64,000 nucleotides of DNA, taken from the NCBI RefSeq assembly GCF_964204645.1, contig NC_134035.1, positions 12,629,951 through 12,693,950 on the forward strand, in the 5' to 3' direction. Of the stretch, positions 1 through 63,750 are shown piece after piece; the first letter of the stretch is position 1; each line of letters begins with the position of its first letter. Both the position numbers and the translations under genes were made by a program. The stretch is from Tubulanus polymorphus. Taxonomy: Eukaryota; Nemertea; Palaeonemertea; Tubulaniformes; Tubulanidae. The notes below the pieces were generated by a model that was not told the DNA's origin, searched no databases, and worked only from the letters and a program-made list of their open reading frames with translations.

Positions 1-480
1 AAAAATTGTCCAGCTGGCTGTACCTTGGAACTCAAATGGCCTAAAAATTCGGAACTTTGGAATTTCGATTTGAATTATCAAGTCCTAAACCATGCTTATT
101 GCCTTATTTACGCCTAATACCGCCATTCTAGCATGCAATGGTCTAGATGTAATGGTCAAAGAATTTTGTGAGCACTTTGAAAAATTGTGAAATTTTTGAG
201 TTTGGAAATGAGATTTTAGGTCACAGTACTTAAAATACTAGATTATAGAAGAAGACTATTTAATCCTACCTATCCCTATACTAAACACAAAATACGGTCT
301 CTAGACAAGTTCACGTTGCAAGTGCAAATAGGTTTTTGAAAGGTCAAATAGTTTTCGTAATAATTTGCTATGTCTCAATCGGAAAAGGGTGACTACAAAA
401 TTACATCCTGCCGTAGCGGTGCCTACAGGGACTAACCTGACCAGTAGGACTATCAAAGGTTGCATAGCCCACATTAACGA
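1..480. other. Non-coding stretch without recognised feature
   Basis: AT-rich sequence. I see no exon, no repeat family shared with the rest of the window and no RNA gene. The only open frame (301-528, minus) does not resemble a known protein. Confidence 0.4.
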
Positions 481-720
481 AGAAAAACTAAGAGAGTAGT
501 GACATTTAGACTGAGTTCTACCAGCCATTTTCAGAAACTAAGAGAGTAGTGACGTTTAGACTGAATTCTATGAGCCATTTTCAAAACTTAGAGAGTAGTG
601 ACGTTCAGACTCAATTCTCTGAGCCATTTTCAAAAACTAAGAGAGTAGTGACGTTGAGACTGAATTCTATGAACCACTTCAGCTTTGGAAATGGCCAACG
701 GAATCTAAACGTCACTACGC
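481..720. repeat. Foldback repeat family A, copy 1 (tandem terminal units)
   Basis: Four direct units of about 50-60 bp, each with the core AGTAGTGACGTT followed by GACT(C/G)AATTCT and AGCCATTTTC, run to 690. They are closed by one inverted unit (AATGGCC ... AAACGTCACTAC, about 690-718). The structure is an inverted-repeat element with one terminus amplified. The same family occurs at 21577-22160, 39824-40165 and, as a shorter form, near 27385-27485. Confidence 0.8.
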
Positions 721-3700
721 TCTGTGTTTTACTTTGTTATTGTTTGTTTTTTCTTCAATTGAACCGAATACACGGAAACTACGTGGCTCTGAAAACTGAC
801 CGATGCCGTCTATAGATGGCTGTAACGACAAACAATTCACTCGACCCGTTATCAAACTTATCTGCAACCCTAAAACTCGTGACCAAATAAAGCATGTTGC
901 TTTTGATCGTATAGGACTTAACGATGCCGGGACGTGTAGGATTTTATACGCTTTTCAGTGACACGAAACAAATCCTACGACAATTGATGAACATTGAACG
1001 ATAATCTCTTATACTCGGTGTATCGTAAATAACGTGTTCAGCGTTACACGGTTTTTATGATTGATAAAGTCTCTTCTCTCGAGTCGTGTATGTTTTACCA
1101 TTTATGACGAAGTGTCTAGTGTTTATTGTTAGACGCAGAAAGCGAAGCGTCATGGGTTCCATATGACATCATCGAATTACCTTCCGAAAAGATGGTTGCC
1201 TCCGTAATGACATATATTATCTGTTCATATTTATTCCTAAGAAAACACAGCCATAGACCCCTATATGACATCATCGAATGATCTAATGGTCCCCATTGAA
1301 GAAACACTCATTCCGTGTTATAACGATAAGTAGAGAATCCCACACTGATAAAACGAAAGATGAAGTCCGAAAAATTCCTCAATAGCTATTCAGCATTCCT
1401 GAAGATGACTATTGATGTTATAGTCGAAACGTCGAATGAATAAGAAACATTAGCTATATAGGAAACTTGGTATCTTTAAGGAAAGTTGGCCTGGCTCCTT
1501 TAACCTCATAAATGACATTTTTGAATTTACCCTTTCAGGAAACTTGGCTGCTTCCATAGATCCCCACATGACATCATCAAATTACCTCTAGTCTATCTAA
1601 AGATGGCTGCTTTAAAAAAGCCCCAATAACATCACTGCACTTATAAACCCTTCCACGAAAAATGCTACACCCTAGGTTTCATATTCTGTTGTAGAAATAG
1701 ATTGTTAGCTCGGTTCCTTTGGTTCTTGGCATGTATTTGATAGGATTTTTGTTTAAGCTTAATGAAAATGAAAAAACTCCGACCTTAGAGTCATATCCAC
1801 AATTTGCGGATGCAAATTTTCAAAAAAATCAATATGTTTCTACGAACAAAAATCTAAAGATGTCGGGAAAATACTTAAAAAGTTTTAGCCTTACCAAAAT
1901 AACCAACCGAATTCAGACGAAATTCTCCGAATGTTTTGTAAGTGAAAATGACTTCTTCAAGTAGACATCCCTGAGGGGATTTTATCACTTCCGCATAGCT
2001 GCGCATTCGCGCATAATATCACTAAATATGATAGTATCCAGTGTTTGGAGAATTACTATATATCTTCTAGCTGTAGGGTTATATACTAATTGATTTAACT
2101 GATTAGCTTCTCAATCTATGGTTCTTACTCAATCTGATCTGTAACGAAGGTATTTTATGATATGTAGAATGTCGTATAGTATATAAGCACACACACTCGG
2201 TAGACTATAATGTATTCATTATTGATATTTCGGCATCTTTTCCGCCCTGAAGACGCTCAGAAACCACACGCGAAAGGGAATTATTATATCCGTATTGCAT
2301 GATCGTGACCGTCGGTAACACGACCTTTAGATCGACTAATGAGCTGTTTATGAATTAATTGGAAAATTGAACCCGTCTCTGGAATATATCGGCGGGAGAT
2401 TTTGTCGCGTATACTACGCGTTTATATTTCAGTACAATTTCTTGACAAAACATTTGTGTTCGTTGTTCAATCTTCCGGTATATGTTTAGGTCGATTTTCT
2501 CTTCGCTTTAGATTCGGAGGCCATTTGCGCAGTTAAATGTTAACACGCGACTTAAGATTGAAATATTTAAATGAACTTTTTCGATAATTTCTTGACAAAA
2601 CATTTTCTGTTCGTTAATCAATCTAAAAACGTATTTTCGGTGATTTCCTTTTCGACTTGGGTCATTGGGCGCTTGATTCGGTAGCGCCAGTTGCGCAGTT
2701 CCGGGTTAGATACGCACGATTAAAGGGTTAAAGCATTCAAAATATACTATTTTAAACTCGAGATTCAATTTCTAACAGGCCACTTTGAAAGCGGATCCAG
2801 AACATGATAGATACACTACCACAGACGATTGACAGAACGGAATCTGAAACTATCTGATAATGTCGTATAAACTTCAGGCAATCCTTGGCATCTTTCATGT
2901 AACTTTCTTCATAAAGTTACCAGGTATTAATTGCCGATGTGATCTGTAAGGTATAATTTGATATGAGATATATCGGTAGCCCGTGTGTCGCGGTATTACA
3001 AGGCCTATGATTCATCAGTTTTCTCGAGTGAGGTTTCTGATATTTATATATACTAAGTGTTCCATATAAGATTGTTTTATCTGCCTGAAACCTTTCAGTG
3101 ATTCCTCTTGCTGTTGGCTCACTTCGATATCAATGAACTCTAGGTAGTAAATTCATAATAAAACCACAACTAAAACAAAATTCATCCTTGAAAATAATGT
3201 GTATATATACATTGCTGATTTTCTTCAACCTCATAAAGTGCGTATGAGATAAGATATGAAATAAAGAATGTGGAGAAGGGCATATTATAAGCCCACAGAA
3301 CTAAACAAGTATTAACATGCAAATACAAGATTTACAAGGATCAATATAGGTTCGACAGTAGAGAATTAGAGAGTTATCGTGGTTTTTGATATAAAAAATA
3401 AACTAGTTTCTCAGTATAGGGACATGAACGGACATCACGTATTGTTTACTCACATTAGTGAACTGTGACCTTTTAGTTTACTGTCAGCGCTTGACCAGTC
3501 CAAAATTACGCATTGGGAATTCAGGGACATTACGCACCTATAAGATCGTCACGTAGGGGTAATTTTATAAACTCAGATTAACCTTTCTGAACCATAAGAT
3601 TTCGTAATGAATTATAGATTGTACGCGTGGCCGCCTGCGTGCAGGGAGTCGTCGGGTATCGTGCATGATCCAGTTCCACAGTTTGGAGTTAAGATCTGAC

Positions 3701-4165
3701 TTTGAGTAAACACTAGTATTAGTGGAACCGGGTCCTGAGTTGTGCCTATATCATCGACTGGGATAATTGTTTTATAGACTTAAAAACTAAAACGATGTCA
3801 TTCGATACGGAAGCTCGTATCTCTCTACGCCGGCGAACTCGGGAGAATCTTTTTAAACGCCGCGCCGTCATTCGTTTTAACCGTCGCTATTTATTCACGC
3901 AACCGTTTTTATTCCAAACGGCTGTTAATGAATTTAAACGCCAGATCGCCTCGTTTTATGCGCGGTGTTAGGTCGAACTGTAAAATCGTGTAGTCGTAAA
4001 CAGTACTTTATTTTGCCGTCGTCGAATTTCTAGCGATCTTCTGATTATATGATCATTGAGGGGTGTTTTGTGTGTTGTTTAGTGGTTTAGTGATAATTTG
4101 AATGTTTAGCTCGTTCTAACTATTGATAAAATACTCTCGAGTTCGTGCTGCCACGATAGATTATT
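721..4165. other. Non-coding stretch with diverged foldback pieces and a diverged duplication
   Basis: No exon is recognised. Around 1360-1470 there is a family C foldback fragment (core GTCGAAACGTCGAATGAATA). At about 2438-2710 two diverged direct copies of a roughly 150-bp segment begin with AATTTCTTGACAAAACATTT and end near TTGCGCAGTT. At about 3667-3735 there is a degenerate family F element (ATCCAGTTCCACAG ... GGAACCGGGTCC). Confidence 0.5.
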
Positions 4166-4322
4166 GAGTCCGAAATGATTCCTTGAACTAGTAGTTTATA
4201 CTTCAACGTTTCGATTATATCCTATAAGTCACCTTAAGGAATAGCCATTTAGTGTTTCTCTGCAGAAGGATATTGTCTAAGCATCGAAATGAACTATAAG
4301 CTAAAGGAAACATTTCGGACTC
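4166..4322. repeat. Foldback repeat family C, full copy
   Basis: The ends are inverted copies of each other: GAGTCCGAAATG at the left and CATTTCGGACTC at the right. Pairing continues imperfectly for about 57 bp (AACGTTTCGATTATATCCT against AGGATATTGTCTAAGCATCG). There is no room for a transposase, so this is MITE-like. Related pieces lie near 1360, 16142, 16515, 23046, 41857 and 42320. Confidence 0.75.
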
Positions 4323-7300
4323 GATATTCCATTCTTATTGTGGTACATTCTATAATAACGAATAATCATCAGCGCTCGGCGATGCTCCGTAGTTGACCAC
4401 AGGTTGTGACGTCATTGTAACCGGTGTTTCTGGTCGGTTGAGTTGAATAAGTGCTTCTATACGACGTGTGTCAAGCGCTTCCTGTTTCTCATTATTCCCC
4501 GTTTGAGCCCGGCGATAAAAGAAACGATGCAGTCACGCCAAGGCGGAACCGTCGCGATCTTTATTATTTCGCCACACAAAGTGTCTCGGAGTTATAAACC
4601 AATATGAACGAAGGAAGTCCAACCGCGTCGGAAGAAAAAGCCTCCATTTTCCGTCGCAATCGAGTTTTATTTATCCAAAGGGTTGATATTGGTTAATAGT
4701 GTAATAGGTCTATCAATAACTGACGTCAGTTTGATTAGTTCGTTTGACAGCCGCTGACAATGCGTCAACAAACGTAACTAAGTCCCAATAATCGCCCGTA
4801 CTGTGATTATTGCTCGGTGTATTATACTTGCGACAGCGCCATCTCGCTGGTCGATCCGTGGGTGACAATTTACCTCGATAGGTAACAGGTTAAAAACATT
4901 ATAGCTTAACCTATACCCGAACACATTCCCGTCATCGAATTCAAGTATTTAGGGTAGATTTTCAACCCTTCCTGTATACATCGAAAACTTTGCATTGGAT
5001 CATTGACGGAAAAGACTATAACCGGTTTTAACCAACACTACCACCTGGCGGATTGACTGAATGAAACAAGGAAACTATCTTGAAAGTTTATCGACACCTT
5101 GCAAAATGACACATGCTTGATATTGTTGACGATAAAGGATATAATATAAACATCAAACTAATCTCATATAAGTAGTATAAACACCCGTACACCCTGACGT
5201 GGAGATTAGATTTAACTGGCGTATCCGAGAGTTCGAAACGAGATTTCTTTTATCTATAACTCTTGAGTAACGAAATACATTTTAGATCTTTTTAATTTCT
5301 ATATGGTTGGTCTTAAACTTTTATTCCCATTTTGATTCTTTTAATTGCGGTTTTTACATCACCATAAAAATTTAGAAAATTAAAAACGAAATTTATTTAC
5401 AAGAATTGAAAATAGAAAAAACGACGGATACAGTTTCGCCGTATAAACTTCACTAGACACTATATTCTAGGCGGATATCACTTATGAACTGATACTCATT
5501 TATTGTTTATTTTAATTGTTTATTTATTGTTTATTTTATTTTTAAATGCTGAGGTTTTTTAACTTCAGTGCCCGTCGTAGTTGCTGTTTTCTCCTCGGAC
5601 CGATCTTCCGTTTTCGTCTGCCGGAAAAGCGAGCGTTAACTGTAAAAATGCGGCGTAAACAATTCGCTGTAAACGATGATACGACGAGTTACGACACGTC
5701 GATACATTACACAACACTTATTTCATTATACACAATCGTGTGACTTACCGCAATAAAGCGAACCTCGCAGATTTATTACCAAACGCGACCACGCGCACCA
5801 ACCAGTTCATAAACTCATTCCATTAGAGACGGAATAACGAATTCGAATACAGACACAGAGCCAACTTCAAAGCAATTCATTCTCAAATTATACCCCACCC
5901 CCGGTGACTAACTCGTTAAAAATGCAGTCACATTTTGCGTCTTGATTCTATGATGATTTTATTAGGACGATGCCACGGCTGATGGTTGTCTATACCCGCT
6001 AGCATAAGGCTCGTTAAACATGTAATCGTATTTTGAATTCTGTGCCTGAATTTTTCGAAAAGTTAAGAACCGAACTTCGCGACTGCACGTTCGGATTCAA
6101 AATGCATTAACAATCGTTAGAAAGTGCTTTGAAATTACAAGAGGCTCTAACTCATCTTTGAGCTGCAACAAGATCATCAACAGACCATACAATTCGTTGT
6201 TTCCAAATGAATTATCCTAAAGCGGCCGTTTCGAAAGAGATTGTATCGACGGGGTACTTACTATATGATAAGGATAAAACGTTTAAAACTTGTTTCAAGT
6301 GTTCGAGTATATATTATACACGGTTGATCGGTCGTTGTTTTTACACCGGGGATCAACAGCCGCGTATAACACGGCAAAGCTGTCTGGTGTGGATTTTCTT
6401 CGCAAAATAACATAATCCTCGAGTGAAGATCAACGAGAGATTTCGAATCGAGAGATCGGACACGATAATGGCATCCACGCTCGATTTACAGATAGTAACA
6501 AAATCATCTATCGCTCGAAGTGTACGATATAAAATATAATATCGGATTCGATCTTTACAGCGTTTTTTTATCCCGTCATTAACGCCGTGATCTTCACAAG
6601 ACGGCCATTAACTGAGTAACTCTTACTTTACTTCTATATTCAGACATTCCCGAGCCCTTTTTAGCAAATATTCGCCCGTAACTTCAATTCAGAAAAGAAC
6701 TTTCACACTTTAGGAACAAAGCCTCTTCTTCTCAAGGTTTGTTTTTGGAAAAATTGGTGAAATGGGCGGCAATCAGAAGATAAAGTTGTCTTTTTTTGTC
6801 TCCAATGAGGATGGCCCTTTTGGACCCTCTGCCGAAAATCCTGAATCCGGTTCCACAGATCTGAGTTAAGAAAATTCAACTCAGAGTGATTGAACTTGTT
6901 GGAAATGAATCAAATTTCACTTTCGTTCGCAACACTGTAGACTAGGATTTTGGCTGGCGCGCGTAGAGCTCGACGACCAATGAGGCGCCCCACGCGCGTG
7001 TCTCCGTACGGTCGAGATCAACCGAAGCGTGCGTTTTGTCGTTACGTCATAGCGAGTGATCGAGGCAATGAGGCGAATTATTGTAGCCGGTGCGTAATAT
7101 ATGAGTTTTTGTCACGAAAGAATGCCATTAATAAATATAATAGGAAATTGAACGTCTATAGCGAGTATCTGTGACAATCAACGAAAAGTGAATTTAGTCG
7201 TCCGTCTTCATTAGAAATACAGATCCCTTTCCGTAAACTACGCGCGCTCGTTTACCAACTGTATATAAAACTAATCAAGGAGTAGTTTATTTTTTCAGCA

Positions 7301-8536
7301 TTCATTTCTCATTTTCTATGACTCTCCCTCTCTCCCCCTGATTCTACCTTTCTCTCCTCACGCCCTCTCCCTATCACCCCCACTTTTTCTTCCACATTTC
7401 CCCTTCTCTCTCCCTTTCCCTCCATCTTGACCCTGTCACCCTCTACTTCTTCCTCTCGTCCCTATGCTTCTGTCCCCCGCTCCACATTCCCCGCTCACCC
7501 TGTCTCCCACCATCTAGTCCAATCTCTCTCCTTCTCGAGTATCATCTGATGGTTGATATCCCTAAATATGTCAATTCATATCAAGATCAAAATCAAACTT
7601 TAAATACAGCAGGAAATGCATTTTACGATTTCAATATGTTGAATTAGATCTTTGTCCTGCTCAAGTGAAAAGATGTTTTTTACGAGATATAACGAACTTA
7701 TTACCTATAGAACTCATGACTTTTAACTTATAACTTTCTCATATAACTAGAACTCAATCGACTATTTCAACCTCTCCCCATAACGACGCGGCTCTATAAA
7801 CCGTTCGTTATGCAGTATTCATTAATGAGATTTATTTAATTAGTTGCTACCGTTAACGGATTCATCTCTTATTGATCTTCGACTTACAAAGTGTACAACA
7901 AATACAGCCTCAAATACACTTCATTCGAGTAAATAAACTCGATTACGACCGATCGACTGAACACTGGTTGCTTTATACGTATATACATAAATCCCTGGAC
8001 GACTATTTGAAGAATTCTGACGCCTGCGCCTCCAAATACCTAAATATTGCTATTTTGTGTTGATTTTTAAACGCGTGAATTTTAAGTATGCGCTTAGGAA
8101 GTCTAATTTTGTCGGTTTCCTGCGGCGAAATCGCCGCGCTATACCGCCTGCTCGTTCGCTCGGCGCTGGCGAATTCCGGAAATACCCGAAAGCGTCGGAA
8201 CGATCACTTGGCGCATTCCGAAAGAGTCCGAACAAACATCGCTCGTAGATTTTAGGAATAACTACGGAACTCGTGTACGAGTCGAACCGGTTACAAACGA
8301 TTCACATTTACATGAAATTATCGAATTAACCTCATCGACTGTTTCGTCACGTTTCCCGCGCTCGCACAAGTGTCGTCTGCCGCCCAACTCTAATACATAA
8401 TGAATTTATTCCAAGTCTCTACTTGCGTAATAGGTTTAACTGAATAAATTCAGATATGGTCAGATATTTCTCATCTGACGGTCGTGTGTCTCCTGGGGCC
8501 AGTTGCAAACAGTCATGGCTCGGTCTAAGAACATCT
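4323..8536. other. Non-coding stretch upstream of the neuropeptide exon
   Basis: No convincing exon is visible, although the neuropeptide gene needs an upstream signal-peptide exon that may be here or left of the window. A pyrimidine-rich, CT/CCC-containing segment lies at about 7318-7535. A degenerate family F terminus is near 6850. Short open frames here (for example 5546-5743, 6207-6410, 8057-8248) show no known motifs. Confidence 0.4.
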
Positions 8537-8677
8537 GGAGCCAGTTGCACAGTCGTGACTTAAGTCCGAAAGTGGTCTTAAATCTTAAGACTGGTCTTAA
8601 GTTGTTAGATAGGCTATAGAATTAAGTTTGTCTTTGACTGGTCTTAAGTCTAAGCCATGACTATGGGACCAGCTCCT
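8537..8677. repeat. MITE-like foldback family B, copy just upstream of the neuropeptide exon
   Basis: The ends GGAGCCAGTTGCACAG and CTATGGGACCAGCTCC are imperfect inverted repeats. The interior carries the family signature CTTAAGTCC, TCTTAAATCTTAAGACTGG and TTAGATAGGCTATAG. The whole is a roughly 140-bp near-palindrome. It ends about 170 bp before the acceptor of the peptide exon. Confidence 0.8.
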
Positions 8678-8848
8678 CAGTTGTATATAGACAACCCTAT
8701 ACAACTTCAGATAAGCCTTATGAACTAAGACCACTTTGATGTCGCGACTGTAAAACAACTGGGCCCTATACTCTGTTCCTTGTCTATAAATCAACTTGAC
8801 CTCAACTTTACTCCGACTAACGTATTCCTTGCTATTGTATATTTACAG

Positions 8849-9810
8849 ATTCGGTACATACGACCGATGAAAACGATACCCCGGTCAGAAATCGACGAGC
8901 GATGCCTATGGTTCGCATGGGTCGAGGCTTGGAACTGGTGAGGATGGGCAAACGGGACTTGAAACTGGTGCGAATGGGTCGATCACCGTACTCAAACAAC
9001 AACGACGAAGTAGAAACCGACGATGATTTATACAGAAGACAACCTCATTTCCCGCGCATCGGCAAAGATCTGGAAAACTTAGAAGAGGAGGCTCGAACCC
9101 CGAATTTACCTCGACTCGGTAAAAATGTTTACCGCCAGTTGTTAATACGAGCTCTGTTAGACGATCTACAAGCGCCACCGGCTTACAAACCTAGGTTCGT
9201 CCGATCAGCTAGAAATACCCGCTCTACCGACCACGTGGATGAACACAACGACCACCACCAGGCGGAGCTACCGTCCACACACGACAACGACCACAGCGAA
9301 GATGAAGACGCCAAGCCCGATGCAGACAGGGCTATACAATTCCCTCGATTGGGTCGCCAATTGAAAGAAGTTCAAGACATAAAGCGCGCATTCGGATTGG
9401 TTCGCATGGGCAAACGGGAACTGGACGACAAACGCGCGTTCGGTCTGGTTCGAATGGGCCGGGCGTTCGGTCTAGTGCGCATGGGCAAGAAATCGGCAGA
9501 TTCCGACACCGACGAAAAACGAGCGTTCGGTCTGGTGCGCATGGGCAAGCGCGACGAAGACGAGGCTGCCAAAAGAGCGTTCGGTCTAGTGCGCATGGGC
9601 AAACGCGACGAGGAAGACTACAAAAGAGCGTTCGGTTTAGTGCGCATGGGCAAACGTGACGAGGAAGACTACAAACGGGCTTTTGGACTAGTGCGCATGG
9701 GCAAACGGGACGAGGAGGATACTAAACGGGCTTTTGGTTTGGTGCGCATGGGCAAACGTGACGAGGCCGACGATAATAAGCGCGCTTTCGGTCTAGTGCG
9801 CATGGGCTAG
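8849..9810 (+). CDS. Multi-copy amidated neuropeptide precursor (myomodulin-like), last coding exon
   Basis: This exon encodes the peptide-bearing part of a secreted prohormone, about 319 residues to the TAG stop. It starts after a good acceptor (TTTACAG, 8842-8848). The frame from there to the first ATG (8902) reads ...VRNRR, a dibasic site followed by AMPMVRMG, so 8902 is not the true start. Predicted products with a Gly amidation donor are AMPMVRM, GLELVRM, DLKLVRM, QPHFPRI, TPNLPRL, AIQFPRL and nine copies of AFGLVRM, mostly bounded by KR and separated by acidic spacers such as DEEDY. The middle (about residues 85-160) is His/Asp/Glu-rich with no peptide copies. The last copy ends Met-Gly-stop. 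By family knowledge, molluscan myomodulins end MLRL-amide and an annelid form ends MLRM-amide; [M/L]-V-R-M-amide is close. The FPRI/FPRL-amides recall the FPRM end of small cardioactive peptides. The exon needs one base from an upstream exon carrying the signal peptide, which I could not find. The class is certain; the family name is an inference. Confidence 0.9.
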
Positions 9811-17863: not shown

Positions 17864-18187
17864 GTTACGTGTATGCCACATGGGCAACTGAAATACCCGC
17901 GGGCACCTCGTGAAACACCGGTACGGTCCCAGGGCCTGCGGGGTATTGACATGGCTTTTCAAAAGATGAAGGAAGCGTGAAAAAATGACACTATTTAATA
18001 AATTCATGGAGTCTGACTATCAAAATAGTAAAAAACCTTTCTACGATTTCAAGGACCTATATTAGTGTATATAAACCTATTTTCACGATTTTGATGAGGT
18101 CGGTGCGACCCGCTTGGAAGTAGTTTGTATATACGTACCATGCGTATTTTGCTTTGATGAGTGGTGATAATGGCGCTCGTGGTCGGG

Positions 18188-18196
18188 TATATAAAA
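18188..18196 (+). promoter_or_regulatory. TATA-like promoter element
   Basis: TATATAAAA lies in a locally GC-richer context (GGTCGGG before, CGCTCC after). Transcription would start near 18220. No recognisable coding exon follows, so the site is only suggestive. Confidence 0.2.
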
Positions 18197-18667
18197 CGCT
18201 CCACACTTTGATAGGCAGCAAATACAGGACAGAAGAAGAACGACTACGTGTAGACCATCCATTTAGTGCTTGTATCTAATATCAAAATGAAAAGAAAAAG
18301 AATAAAACTATGATGATATTCAATCAGGCTAAACGACAAAATTATTTCGTATTTTAATTTTTTTTTCACAAAATATTCTTGTAAGTATAAAAGTATATAA
18401 GTTTAGTCACTTTGATGAATTAAGATTATCAATATTATTACATTAACCGTTGAAAACAGTATCAAATGCAACATATCGTATTCTCTACCTTCATCACGTG
18501 ATAAAACAGAAATAGTTTTTAAAAAAGGGGAAAATGCGGATAAAAGTACCCTAACAAAATGGCGGCTAGCAACTGTAAAATGGTTAAGTGAGAAACATCC
18601 GTTTGCCATCAGGATCAGAGGCACTTTGAACTGAGTATTCGTAAATTACCCTAAAGCTGATTTCACA

Positions 18668-21576: not shown

Positions 21577-22160
21577 AAAGATAGTAGTGATGTTTAGACT
21601 CAATTCTATGAGCCATTACAGAAGAGAGTAGTGACGTTTAGACTCAATTCTATGGGCCATTTTCAAAACTAAGATAGTAGTGACGTTTAGACTCAATTCT
21701 ATGAGCCATTACAAAAGAGAGTAGTGACGTTTAGACTCAATTCTATGAGCCATTTTCAAAACTAAGATAGTAGTGACGTTTAGACTCAGTTCTATGAGCC
21801 ATTTTCAAAAATAAGAGAGTAGTGACGTTTAGACTCGATTCTATGGGCCATTTTCAAAACTAAGATAGTAGTGACGTTTAGACTCAATTCTATGAGCCAT
21901 TACAAAAGAGAGTAGTGACGTTTAGACTCAATTCTATGAGCCATTTTCAAAACTAAGATAGTAGTGACGTTTAGACTCAGTTCTATGAGCCATTTTCAAA
22001 AATAAGAGAGTAGTGACGTTTAGACTCGATTCTATGAGCCATTTTCAAAACTAAGATAGTAGTGACGTTTAGACTCAATTCTAATGAGCCATTTTCAACA
22101 TTGGTAATACTGGTACGATTTTGGAAATGGCTCACAACAGGATTGAGTCGAAACGTTACT
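21577..22160. repeat. Foldback repeat family A, large tandem array
   Basis: About eleven direct units of 45-50 bp (AGTAGTGACGTTTAGACTC ... ATGAGCCATT) alternate between a form ending CATTACAAAAG and one ending CATTTTCAAAACTAAG. A single inverted unit (AATGGCTCACAAC ... AAACGTTACT, about 22127-22160) closes the array. A roughly 190-bp block of units is repeated as a higher-order unit (for example 21710-21850 against 21900-22040). Confidence 0.85.
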
Positions 22161-27951: not shown

Positions 27952-28385
27952 GTGGATAAATCCAGCTCGCCCCGGAGTGAGTGGTTCTAACTCATGTACT
28001 ATACCCGTTTATCCATCAATTCACGTCCCGACAGCGAAAAAAATGATTCCGTACAAACAGGCCAATAGGTAGGCTTCCATAGACAACATCGCTGTCTATG
28101 TATCTTCTAAACTGGAAAAAAGACACTTTTTACTCGTTGATTAAACTGGTCAGAATCATAGCCCTTTAAGTAAATCAAAGATGAATATGTTGAGGAATTC
28201 GCTTTTTCTGCCATATTCCGTTGCCAGAAGGGATAGGAGCGGACCTAGGGACGTTCCAACGTTACCGCGTGAGAGCTTTACCCGCGGATGAAGAAGCTCT
28301 AGTATTTTATATAGGATCCCCTCCCTCAGATTGAAGAACCCCGCTTTTACATTCCGTCTGTGGTGATTGTGATGCTGGATAGAGC

Positions 28386-29378
28386 AGTATGGCTCGGTGC
28401 GACCCCCTGCAGTATAGCTCGGTGCGACCCCCTGCAGTATAGCTCGGTGCGACCCCCTGCAGTAGAGCACGGTGCGACCCCCAGCAGTATAGCCCGGTGC
28501 GACCCCCAGCAGTATAGCCCGGTGCGACCCCCAGCAGTATAGCCCGGTGCGACCCCCTGCAGTATAGCCCGGTGCGACCCCCTGCAGTATAGCACGGTGC
28601 GACCCCCTGCAGTATAGCTCGGTGCGACCCCCTGCAGTACAGCTCGGTGCGACCCCCAGCAGTATAGCCCGGTGCGACCCCCAGCAGTATAGCACGGTGC
28701 GACCCCCAGCAGTATAGCCCGATGCGACCCCCAGCAGTATAGCTCGGTGCGACCCCCAGCAGTATAGCACGGTGCGACCCCCTGCAGTATAGCTCGGTGC
28801 GACCCCCAGCAGTATAGCTCGGTGCGACCCCCAGCAGTATAGCACGGTGCGACCCCCAGCAGTATAGCACGGTGCGACCCCCAGCAGTATAGCTCGGTGC
28901 GACCCCCAGCAGTATAGCACGGTGCGACCCCCAGCAGTATAGCACGGTGCGACCCCCAGCAGTATAGCACGGTGCGACCCCCAGCAGTATAGCTCGGTGT
29001 GACCCCCAGCAGTATAGCTCGGTGTGACCCCCAGCAGTATAGCTCGGTGCGACCCCCAGCAGTATAGCACGGTGCGACCCCCAGCAGTATAGCTCGGTGT
29101 GACCCCCAGCAGTATAGCCCGATGCGACCCCCTGCAGTATAGCACGGTGCGACCCCCAGCAGTATAGCCCGGTGCGACCCCCAGCAGTATAGCCCGATGC
29201 GACCCCCAGCAGTATAGCTCGGTGCGACCCCCTGCAGTATAGCCCGGTGCGACCCCCTGCAGTATAGCACGGTGCGACCCCCAACAGTATAGCCCGGTGC
29301 GACCCCCAGCAGTATAGCCCGGTGCGACCCCCAGCAGTATAGCCCGGTGCGACCCCCTGCAGTATAGCTCGGTGCCCT
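28386..29378. repeat. 25-bp minisatellite, about 40 units
   Basis: The unit begins AGTATAGCNCGGTGCGACCC and continues CC(A/T)GC. The AGTA(T/G) start recurs every 25 bases from 28386 to 29361, exactly 39 periods with no net length change. Variation is confined to a few positions: T/A/C after AGC, G/A in CGGTG versus CGATG, C/T in GTGC versus GTGT, and A/T before GC. On the minus strand the unit has no stop in any frame, and 25 is not a multiple of three. Three overlapping frames of 325-377 codons therefore stay open, each cycling through the same 25-residue pattern. They are not genes. Confidence 0.97.
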
Positions 29379-39823: not shown

Positions 39824-40165
39824 AAACTAAGAGAGTAGTGACATTTCGACAGAATTCTAAGAGCCATTTTCAAAACTAGAGAATTAACGTTCAGACTTAA
39901 TTTTCTGAGCCATTTTCAAAACTCTAAGGAGTCATAACATTTAGACTCAGTTCTCTGAGCTATTTTAGAAAACTAAGAGTTTAGTGACGTTTAGATTCAA
40001 TTATCTAGTGAGTTTCAGAAATAAGAGAGTAGTGACGTTTCACCCGAATTCTACGAGCTATTTTCAAAACACTTTTTCGAAATCAGTTTTCAAATCGCTG
40101 GTCGAGATTTGAAAATATCAACTCAGGGAATTTGGAGTCGAAACGTCAAACACTATTTCAGTTTT
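39824..40165. repeat. Foldback repeat family A, diverged array
   Basis: Five diverged direct units (AGTAGTGACATTTCGAC, AACGTTCAGACTTAATT, CATAACATTTAGACTCAG and others, each with AGCCATTTTC or AGC(C/T)ATTTT) are followed by an inverted end (GGAGTCGAAACGTCAAACACT). Confidence 0.75.
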
Positions 40166-43296: not shown

Positions 43297-51800
<8,504 letters not shown>

Positions 51801-52218: not shown

Positions 52219-52271
52219 ATTAATGTATTCAATGTACATGAACAAGTGTGAGTTCTTATAGATATATCGAT

Positions 52272-53043
52272 CAGTAGATTGTGCCCCTTACAACTCAGTA
52301 GACTGTGCCCCTTACAACTCAGTAAACTGTGCCCCTTACAACTCAGTAGACTGTGCCCCTTACAACTCAGTAGATTGTGCCCCTTACAACTCAGTAGACT
52401 GTGCCCCTTACAACTCAGTAAACTGTGCCCCTTACAACTCAGTAGACTGTGCCCCTTACAACTCAGTAGACTGTGCCCCTTACAACTCAGTAGACTGTGC
52501 CCCTTACAACTCAGTAGACTGTGCCCCTTACAACTCAGTAAACTGTGCCCCTTACAACTCAGTAGACTGTGCCCCTTACAACTCAGTAGACTGTGCCCCT
52601 TACAACTCAGTAGACTGTGCCCCTTACAACTCAGTAGACTGTGCCCCTTACAACTCAGTAAACTGTGCCCCTTACAACTCAGTAGACTGTGCCCCTTACA
52701 ACTCAGTAGACTGTGCCCCTTACAACTCAGTAGATTGTGCCCCTTACAACTCAGTAGACTGTGCCCCTTACAACTCAGTAGATTGTGCCCCTTACAACTC
52801 AGTAGACTGTGCCCCTTACAACTCAGTAGATTGTGCCCCTTACAACTCAGTAGATTGTGCCCCTTACAACTCAGTAGATTGTGCCCCTTACAACTCAGTA
52901 GACTGTGCCCCTTACAACTCAGTAGATTGTGTCCCTTACAACTCAGTAGACTGTGCCCCTTACAACTCAGTAGACTGTGCCCCTTACAACTCAGTAGACT
53001 GTGCCCCTTACAACTCAGTAGACTGTGCCCCTTACAACTCGGG
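52272..53043. repeat. 24-bp minisatellite between PSMD2 and DDB1, 32 units
   Basis: The unit TGTGCCCCTTACAACTCAGT plus AGA(C/T) starts at 52280 and recurs at exact 24-base steps to 53024, 31 periods with no indel. Substitutions are limited to AGA/AAA, C/T before TGTG and a single GTGTCCC. Because 24 is a multiple of three, frames stay open on both strands with an 8-residue period (CPLQLSRL plus, SLLSCKGH minus). Neither frame has a plausible flanking gene structure, so both are rejected as genes. The array begins about 60 bp after the PSMD2 AATAAA. Confidence 0.97.

Positions 53044-53793: not shown

Positions 53794-63750
<9,957 letters not shown>

Follow-up and report, generated by a model that had tools for sequence, protein, structure and literature searches.

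Does a single gene of the nemertean Tubulanus polymorphus supply two kinds of amidated neuropeptide, and if so, is this combination peculiar to the animal or an established property of a known precursor family? The question is raised by an exon at 8849..9810 on the forward strand of the window, i.e. the whole stretch of 64,000 nucleotides analysed. Very probably it encodes the peptides of a lophotrochozoan myomodulin-type precursor, from which VRM-amides and PRX-amides would both be released, likely to act on two receptor types.

Fifteen predicted heptapeptides in one exon

The open frame, its translation and the splice acceptor identify the 962 bases at 8849..9810 as the main and last coding exon of the precursor. 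An AG at 8847-8848 with a T-rich stretch before it fits an exon start at 8849, and the intron ahead of the exon is in phase 1. Traced back to 8821, the open frame runs to 9807 (+) over 329 codons, with 319 whole codons inside the exon, and ends at a TAG stop (9808-9810). In 500 base shuffles of the exon, read in six frames, the longest open frame never exceeded 233 codons (319 in the real exon), and the highest number of R[MLI]G[KR] motifs per frame was 3 (14 in the real exon); thus, neither the open frame nor the motif count is due to chance.

A total of 12 VRM-Gly and 3 PR[IL]-Gly peptides are encoded in this single frame, all on the forward strand. The series begins with AMPMVRM-Gly followed by R (8899..8922), predicted to yield AMPMVRM-amide, GLELVRM-Gly followed by KR (8926..8949) and DLKLVRM-Gly followed by R (8956..8979). 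Two peptides of the PRX type come next, QPHFPRI-Gly (9040..9063; RR before, single K after) and TPNLPRL-Gly (9097..9120; single basic residues on either side), then an Asp/Glu/His-rich stretch, a third PRX-type peptide, AIQFPRL-Gly (9331..9354), again with single basic residues on either side, and finally nine copies of AFGLVRM-Gly (9388..9807). These copies start at 9388, 9436, 9463, 9523, 9577, 9628, 9679, 9730 and 9784, with mostly acidic spacers that range from a single R up to 12 residues. The peptide counts of the sequence-only reading (nine AFGLVRM-Gly, three other xVRM-Gly, and one peptide each ending in FPRI, LPRL and FPRL) therefore hold in one frame; its placing of the peptides before Gly-basic sites is correct for 14 of the 15, in which K or R follows the Gly, whereas the last AFGLVRM-Gly abuts the stop codon. 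The nine AFGLVRMG copies are encoded by 8 distinct DNA strings with a mean of 3.1 base differences (36 pairs), all of them silent, a pattern that points to selection acting on the peptide.

We infer expression, processing and amidation of the precursor, as well as the receptor pairing discussed below, along the following lines. The signal peptide would be removed and convertases would cut the precursor at basic sites; a carboxypeptidase would then remove the remaining basic residues from the new C-termini, leaving a terminal Gly to be converted into an amide. Cut at basic sites, all fifteen peptides would be heptapeptides, the predicted products being AFGLVRM-amide in excess, from its nine copies, along with three further VRM-amides and three PRI/PRL-amides, of which QPHFPRI could form an N-terminal pyroglutamate. 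Computed [M+H]+ values of the amides are 792.455 for AFGLVRM, 834.415 for AMPMVRM, 816.476 for GLELVRM, 873.534 for DLKLVRM, 809.499 for TPNLPRL, 843.520 for AIQFPRL and 876.484 for pGlu-PHFPRI.

The PRX peptides are flanked downstream by a single basic residue (GK-D, GK-N and GR-Q), the only dibasic site next to any of the three being the one that precedes QPHFPRI, and segments at such single basic sites may be poorly excised. Conceivably, then, the VRM peptides alone are released in substantial amounts, and the PRX segments are mostly unexcised spacer or give non-amidated pieces, in keeping with an earlier view of the PRXGX stretches of annelids as peptides that might lack an amide (Conzelmann 2013, PMC3890597). 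We consider this rather doubtful, since single R also follows AMPMVRM, DLKLVRM and one AFGLVRM copy, monobasic cleavage has been inferred from nemertean mass spectrometry (PMC8557429), and the PRX peptides of slug and Aplysia are treated as amidated, with synthetic amides active on the slug receptor (PMC7749107).

Assignment to the myomodulin family

Neither Pfam, PDB nor NCBIfam contains a usable myomodulin model, and searches of the precursor against them returned chance-like matches only (best E 0.24, 0.32 and 0.027, respectively, the NCBIfam match lying far under its cut-off); neither an Rfam nor a tRNA scan of the window gave any match. The precursor was set beside its relatives by descriptions and motifs only, with family criteria taken from a published description (PMC6425005), namely multiple short peptides ending in LRL, LRM or variants such as VRL, LRV and VRM before Gly, and PRXamides in the same precursor. 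The exon encodes 12 xVRM-Gly peptides, 11 of them with K/R after the Gly and the last with the stop, together with QPHFPRI-G, TPNLPRL-G and AIQFPRL-G, so that the idea of a prohormone combining a myomodulin-like set with PRX-amides is borne out. It lacks the FPRM-amide ends of small cardioactive peptide (sCAP) precursors, its three PRX ends being PRI, PRL and PRL. VRMamide is itself named among the LRL/LRM-amide variants, in conchiferans and nemerteans (PMC6425005; PMC8557429), and myomodulin, the spiralian counterpart of myosuppressin, has precursors listed for nemerteans, brachiopods and phoronids (Thiel 2021, PMC8557429).

The mixed precursor had seemed surprising because of a mistaken premise, i.e. 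that no precursor was known to hold both kinds of peptide. In fact, PRXamides are described as being encoded by molluscan and lophotrochozoan myomodulin precursors too, except for gastropod myomodulin-1 and platyhelminths (De Oliveira 2019, PMC6425005), and the same content is repeated for lophotrochozoan precursors by Thiel 2021 (PMC8557429). Slug myomodulin2 explicitly mixes myomodulins and PRX peptides, and Aplysia MMG2 is cited as being of the same mixed kind (Ahn 2020, PMC7749107). The exon shares with the lophotrochozoan myomodulin proneuropeptides described in PMC6425005 and PMC8557429 the occurrence of many short [L/V]R[L/M]-amides and of a PRXamide class in one precursor, but is dominated by nine identical AFGLVRM copies. 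Myomodulin orthologues with PRX peptides, which the sequence-only reading had named as evidence against its proposal, are thus on record at the level of the family, whereas none of the exact heptapeptides of the exon was found in the literature searched.

Closer likenesses are found in gastropods and annelids. Deroceras myomodulin2 and Aplysia MMG2 likewise use one gene for myomodulins and PRX heptapeptides, the latter including QPPLPRYa, AVALPRIa and AVPRPRIa; QPPLPRYa resembles QPHFPRI of the exon, AVALPRIa resembles AIQFPRL, and AVPRPRIa is also similar (PMC7749107). Slug myomodulin2, however, carries just two myomodulins and has PRY and PRG ends too, in contrast to 12 VRM peptides and only PRI/PRL ends in the exon (PMC7749107). 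Annelid myomodulin precursors (Platynereis, Capitella) have in common with the exon RM-amides and conserved PRXGX stretches with monobasic flanks, but their amides end in LRM rather than VRM (Conzelmann 2013, PMC3890597). Passages on myomodulin in scallop and oyster give MLRL-amides, with an FFRI-amide form in oyster, and name no PRX peptide (PMC5996578, PMC4200219). With molluscan sCAP the exon shares the PRX-amide end, but the slug sCAPs, two to a precursor, end in FPRM (PMC7749107), whereas FPRI, LPRL and FPRL stand beside VRM copies here.

A myomodulin gene fused with a small cardioactive or pyrokinin precursor, or an intermediate showing the origin of one family from the other, would account for the presence of both C-terminal motifs in one exon. 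We regard this as very unlikely: PRXamides are described as part of the myomodulin precursors of molluscs and lophotrochozoans, two exceptions aside (PMC6425005), so that no recent fusion is needed, and the PRX peptides, placed after the third VRM peptide, end in PRI or PRL and include no FPRM pair. Fusion was rejected on the first of these grounds, and nothing in the present data shows one family arising from the other, as had been suggested. For a separate sCAP precursor, the exact FPRMG pattern gave 8 matches in the genome compared to 6 in a reversed control, which is near chance and no proof of sCAP absence; two of the eight were inspected, and both lie in a tandem repeat.

When the myomodulin-type precursor was searched against its own genome (267.8 Mb in 77 contigs), it matched itself (8e-218), and no second such precursor was found. 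A single further match had an E value of at most 0.001 (3.8e-4), and it belongs to another kind of precursor, which carries 15 FMRI-Gly copies and lies 3.45 Mb off on the same contig. This FMRI precursor (L007, C11:9182500-9191500, minus strand) consists of one open frame, has a signal peptide as judged by eye and resembles the FxRIamide family.

Upstream exon and surroundings

A strict scan of the first 8.8 kb of the window for the signal-peptide exon yielded nothing, a loose scan yielded 4 weak rows, none in the needed phase, and a convincing signal peptide was not found within the window. Among the 804 ATGs in the 48,848 bases upstream of the exon, two met the requirements of the scan, and the donor score of one of them was 6.0. 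The window occupies C11:12629951-12693950, and upstream of it a tentative candidate for the signal-peptide exon at C11:12607385-12607442, which encodes MLPSKFRLALAVTTILYLS, ends in the matching phase at CAG/GTAGGT (donor CAGGTAGGT); joined to the main exon across an intron of 31,356 bases, it would give a precursor of 339 residues. As a control, three stretches totalling 167,038 bases were scanned; this total counts 8,848 bases twice, since the reverse strand of window 1-8848 belongs to two of the stretches. The loose thresholds let through 12 control rows, including nested ATGs that share a frame, and all 12 had donor scores below 5. The candidate nevertheless stays tentative, because this cut-off of 5 was set after the candidate had been seen and because the hydrophobic stretch is stronger in several controls than in the candidate. 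A decaying or unexpressed pseudogene exon, with which the failure to find a signal exon within the window would agree, is extremely improbable given that the exon has 319 open codons and that its nine AFGLVRM copies vary at silent positions only.

Other features of the window include a short frame at 18140-18262 (-) whose first residues (MDGLHVVVLLLSCICCLSKCGAFY...) look like those of a secreted protein; a donor-like site follows the frame, which has no Pfam match. Exons of the proteasome subunit RPN1/PSMD2 lie at 45192-50876 (+), with Pfam RPN1_RPN2_N at 45192-45470 and 46232-46471; 49046-49405 and 50646-50876, which have no Pfam match, we take by eye to be further RPN1/PSMD2 pieces. Exons of a DDB1-type protein are located at 56044-61036 (-), with Pfam CPSF_A in two frames and the RSE1/DDB1/CPSF1 propeller in one, and presumably represent DDB1. 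Tandem arrays are present at 28383-29375 (unit of 25 bases), 52271-53040 (24), 57398-58305 (33) and 21578-22098 (about 49), and a comparable unit of about 50 bases was noted by eye at 484-676 and 39940-40040 as well.

Candidate receptors in the same genome

By analogy, the VRM-amides would be ligands of myomodulin-type receptors, and a neuromedin-U (NmU)/pyrokinin-type receptor would respond to the PRX-amides. QPPLPRYa, QPPVPRYa and AVPRPRIa, encoded by slug myomodulin2 and 3, activate an NmU receptor as synthetic amides (Ahn 2020, PMC7749107), and these active ligands have the same heptapeptide length as the peptides predicted here. The earlier proposal of two receptor classes is thus reasonable, although not without precedent. 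Only 3 of 10 slug peptides were active on the slug NmU receptor, the other slug PRXamides tested failed, and when Ala or Trp took the place of its final Tyr, the activity of QPPLPRYa was almost lost or strongly reduced (PMC7749107). An action of PRI/PRL peptides on an NmU-type receptor is therefore not assured, even though AVPRPRIa is active.

Nemerteans, brachiopods and phoronids are on record as having pyrokinin-type receptors (PMC8557429), and the presence of such receptors in the same genome permits the pairing model but does not prove it. A search of the T. polymorphus genome with an NMUR1 segment scored 126 places, with a clear outlier on C2 (4e-48; next place 2e-26). This NmU-type receptor exon (C2:3871321-3872016, minus strand) is closer to NMUR1 (8e-50) and NMUR2 (1e-46) than to the neurotensin receptor (5e-35) among PDB entries, and a further NmU-type piece with 39% identity to the NMUR1 query is found 25 kb off on the same strand (C2:3846467-3846697). 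A second NmU-type receptor (C1:21195739-21196284, minus strand) likewise ranks NMUR1 (3.4e-27) ahead of the ghrelin receptor (2.7e-21) in PDB. Both genes are apparently split by introns.

The receptor for the VRM-amides may be among the Srw-group receptors of the genome. Profile searches listed at least 125 Srw and at least 150 7tm_1 matches; five Srw proteins were read (L008, L009, L010, L012 and L017), and L008 and L010 were compared with PDB. For L008, the top Srw-group receptor among the matches listed, the nearest PDB entry is GPR139, which together with GPR142 is sister to a protostome receptor group that includes myosuppressin/myomodulin receptors (Thiel 2021, PMC8557429). L010, another Srw-group receptor, is only weakly similar to solved structures, with NMUR1 and not GPR139 as its best PDB match. 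A second myomodulin receptor has been deorphanized in Platynereis (PMC5747525).

If VRM- and PRX-amides act on separate receptors, a single precursor could allow a neuron to send two kinds of signal. It is even possible, albeit unlikely, that most of the ligand for the NmU/pyrokinin-type receptors of this animal comes from the myomodulin gene, in which case the release of VRM- and PRX-amides would be tied at a fixed ratio of 12:3 and two receptor systems would be driven together. The mixed precursor is an already known state of the family, to which this exon adds a clean example with VRM replacing LRM/LRL. Its peptide sequences, their predicted masses and the NmU-type receptor of this genome allow the receptor pairing to be tested beyond gastropods.
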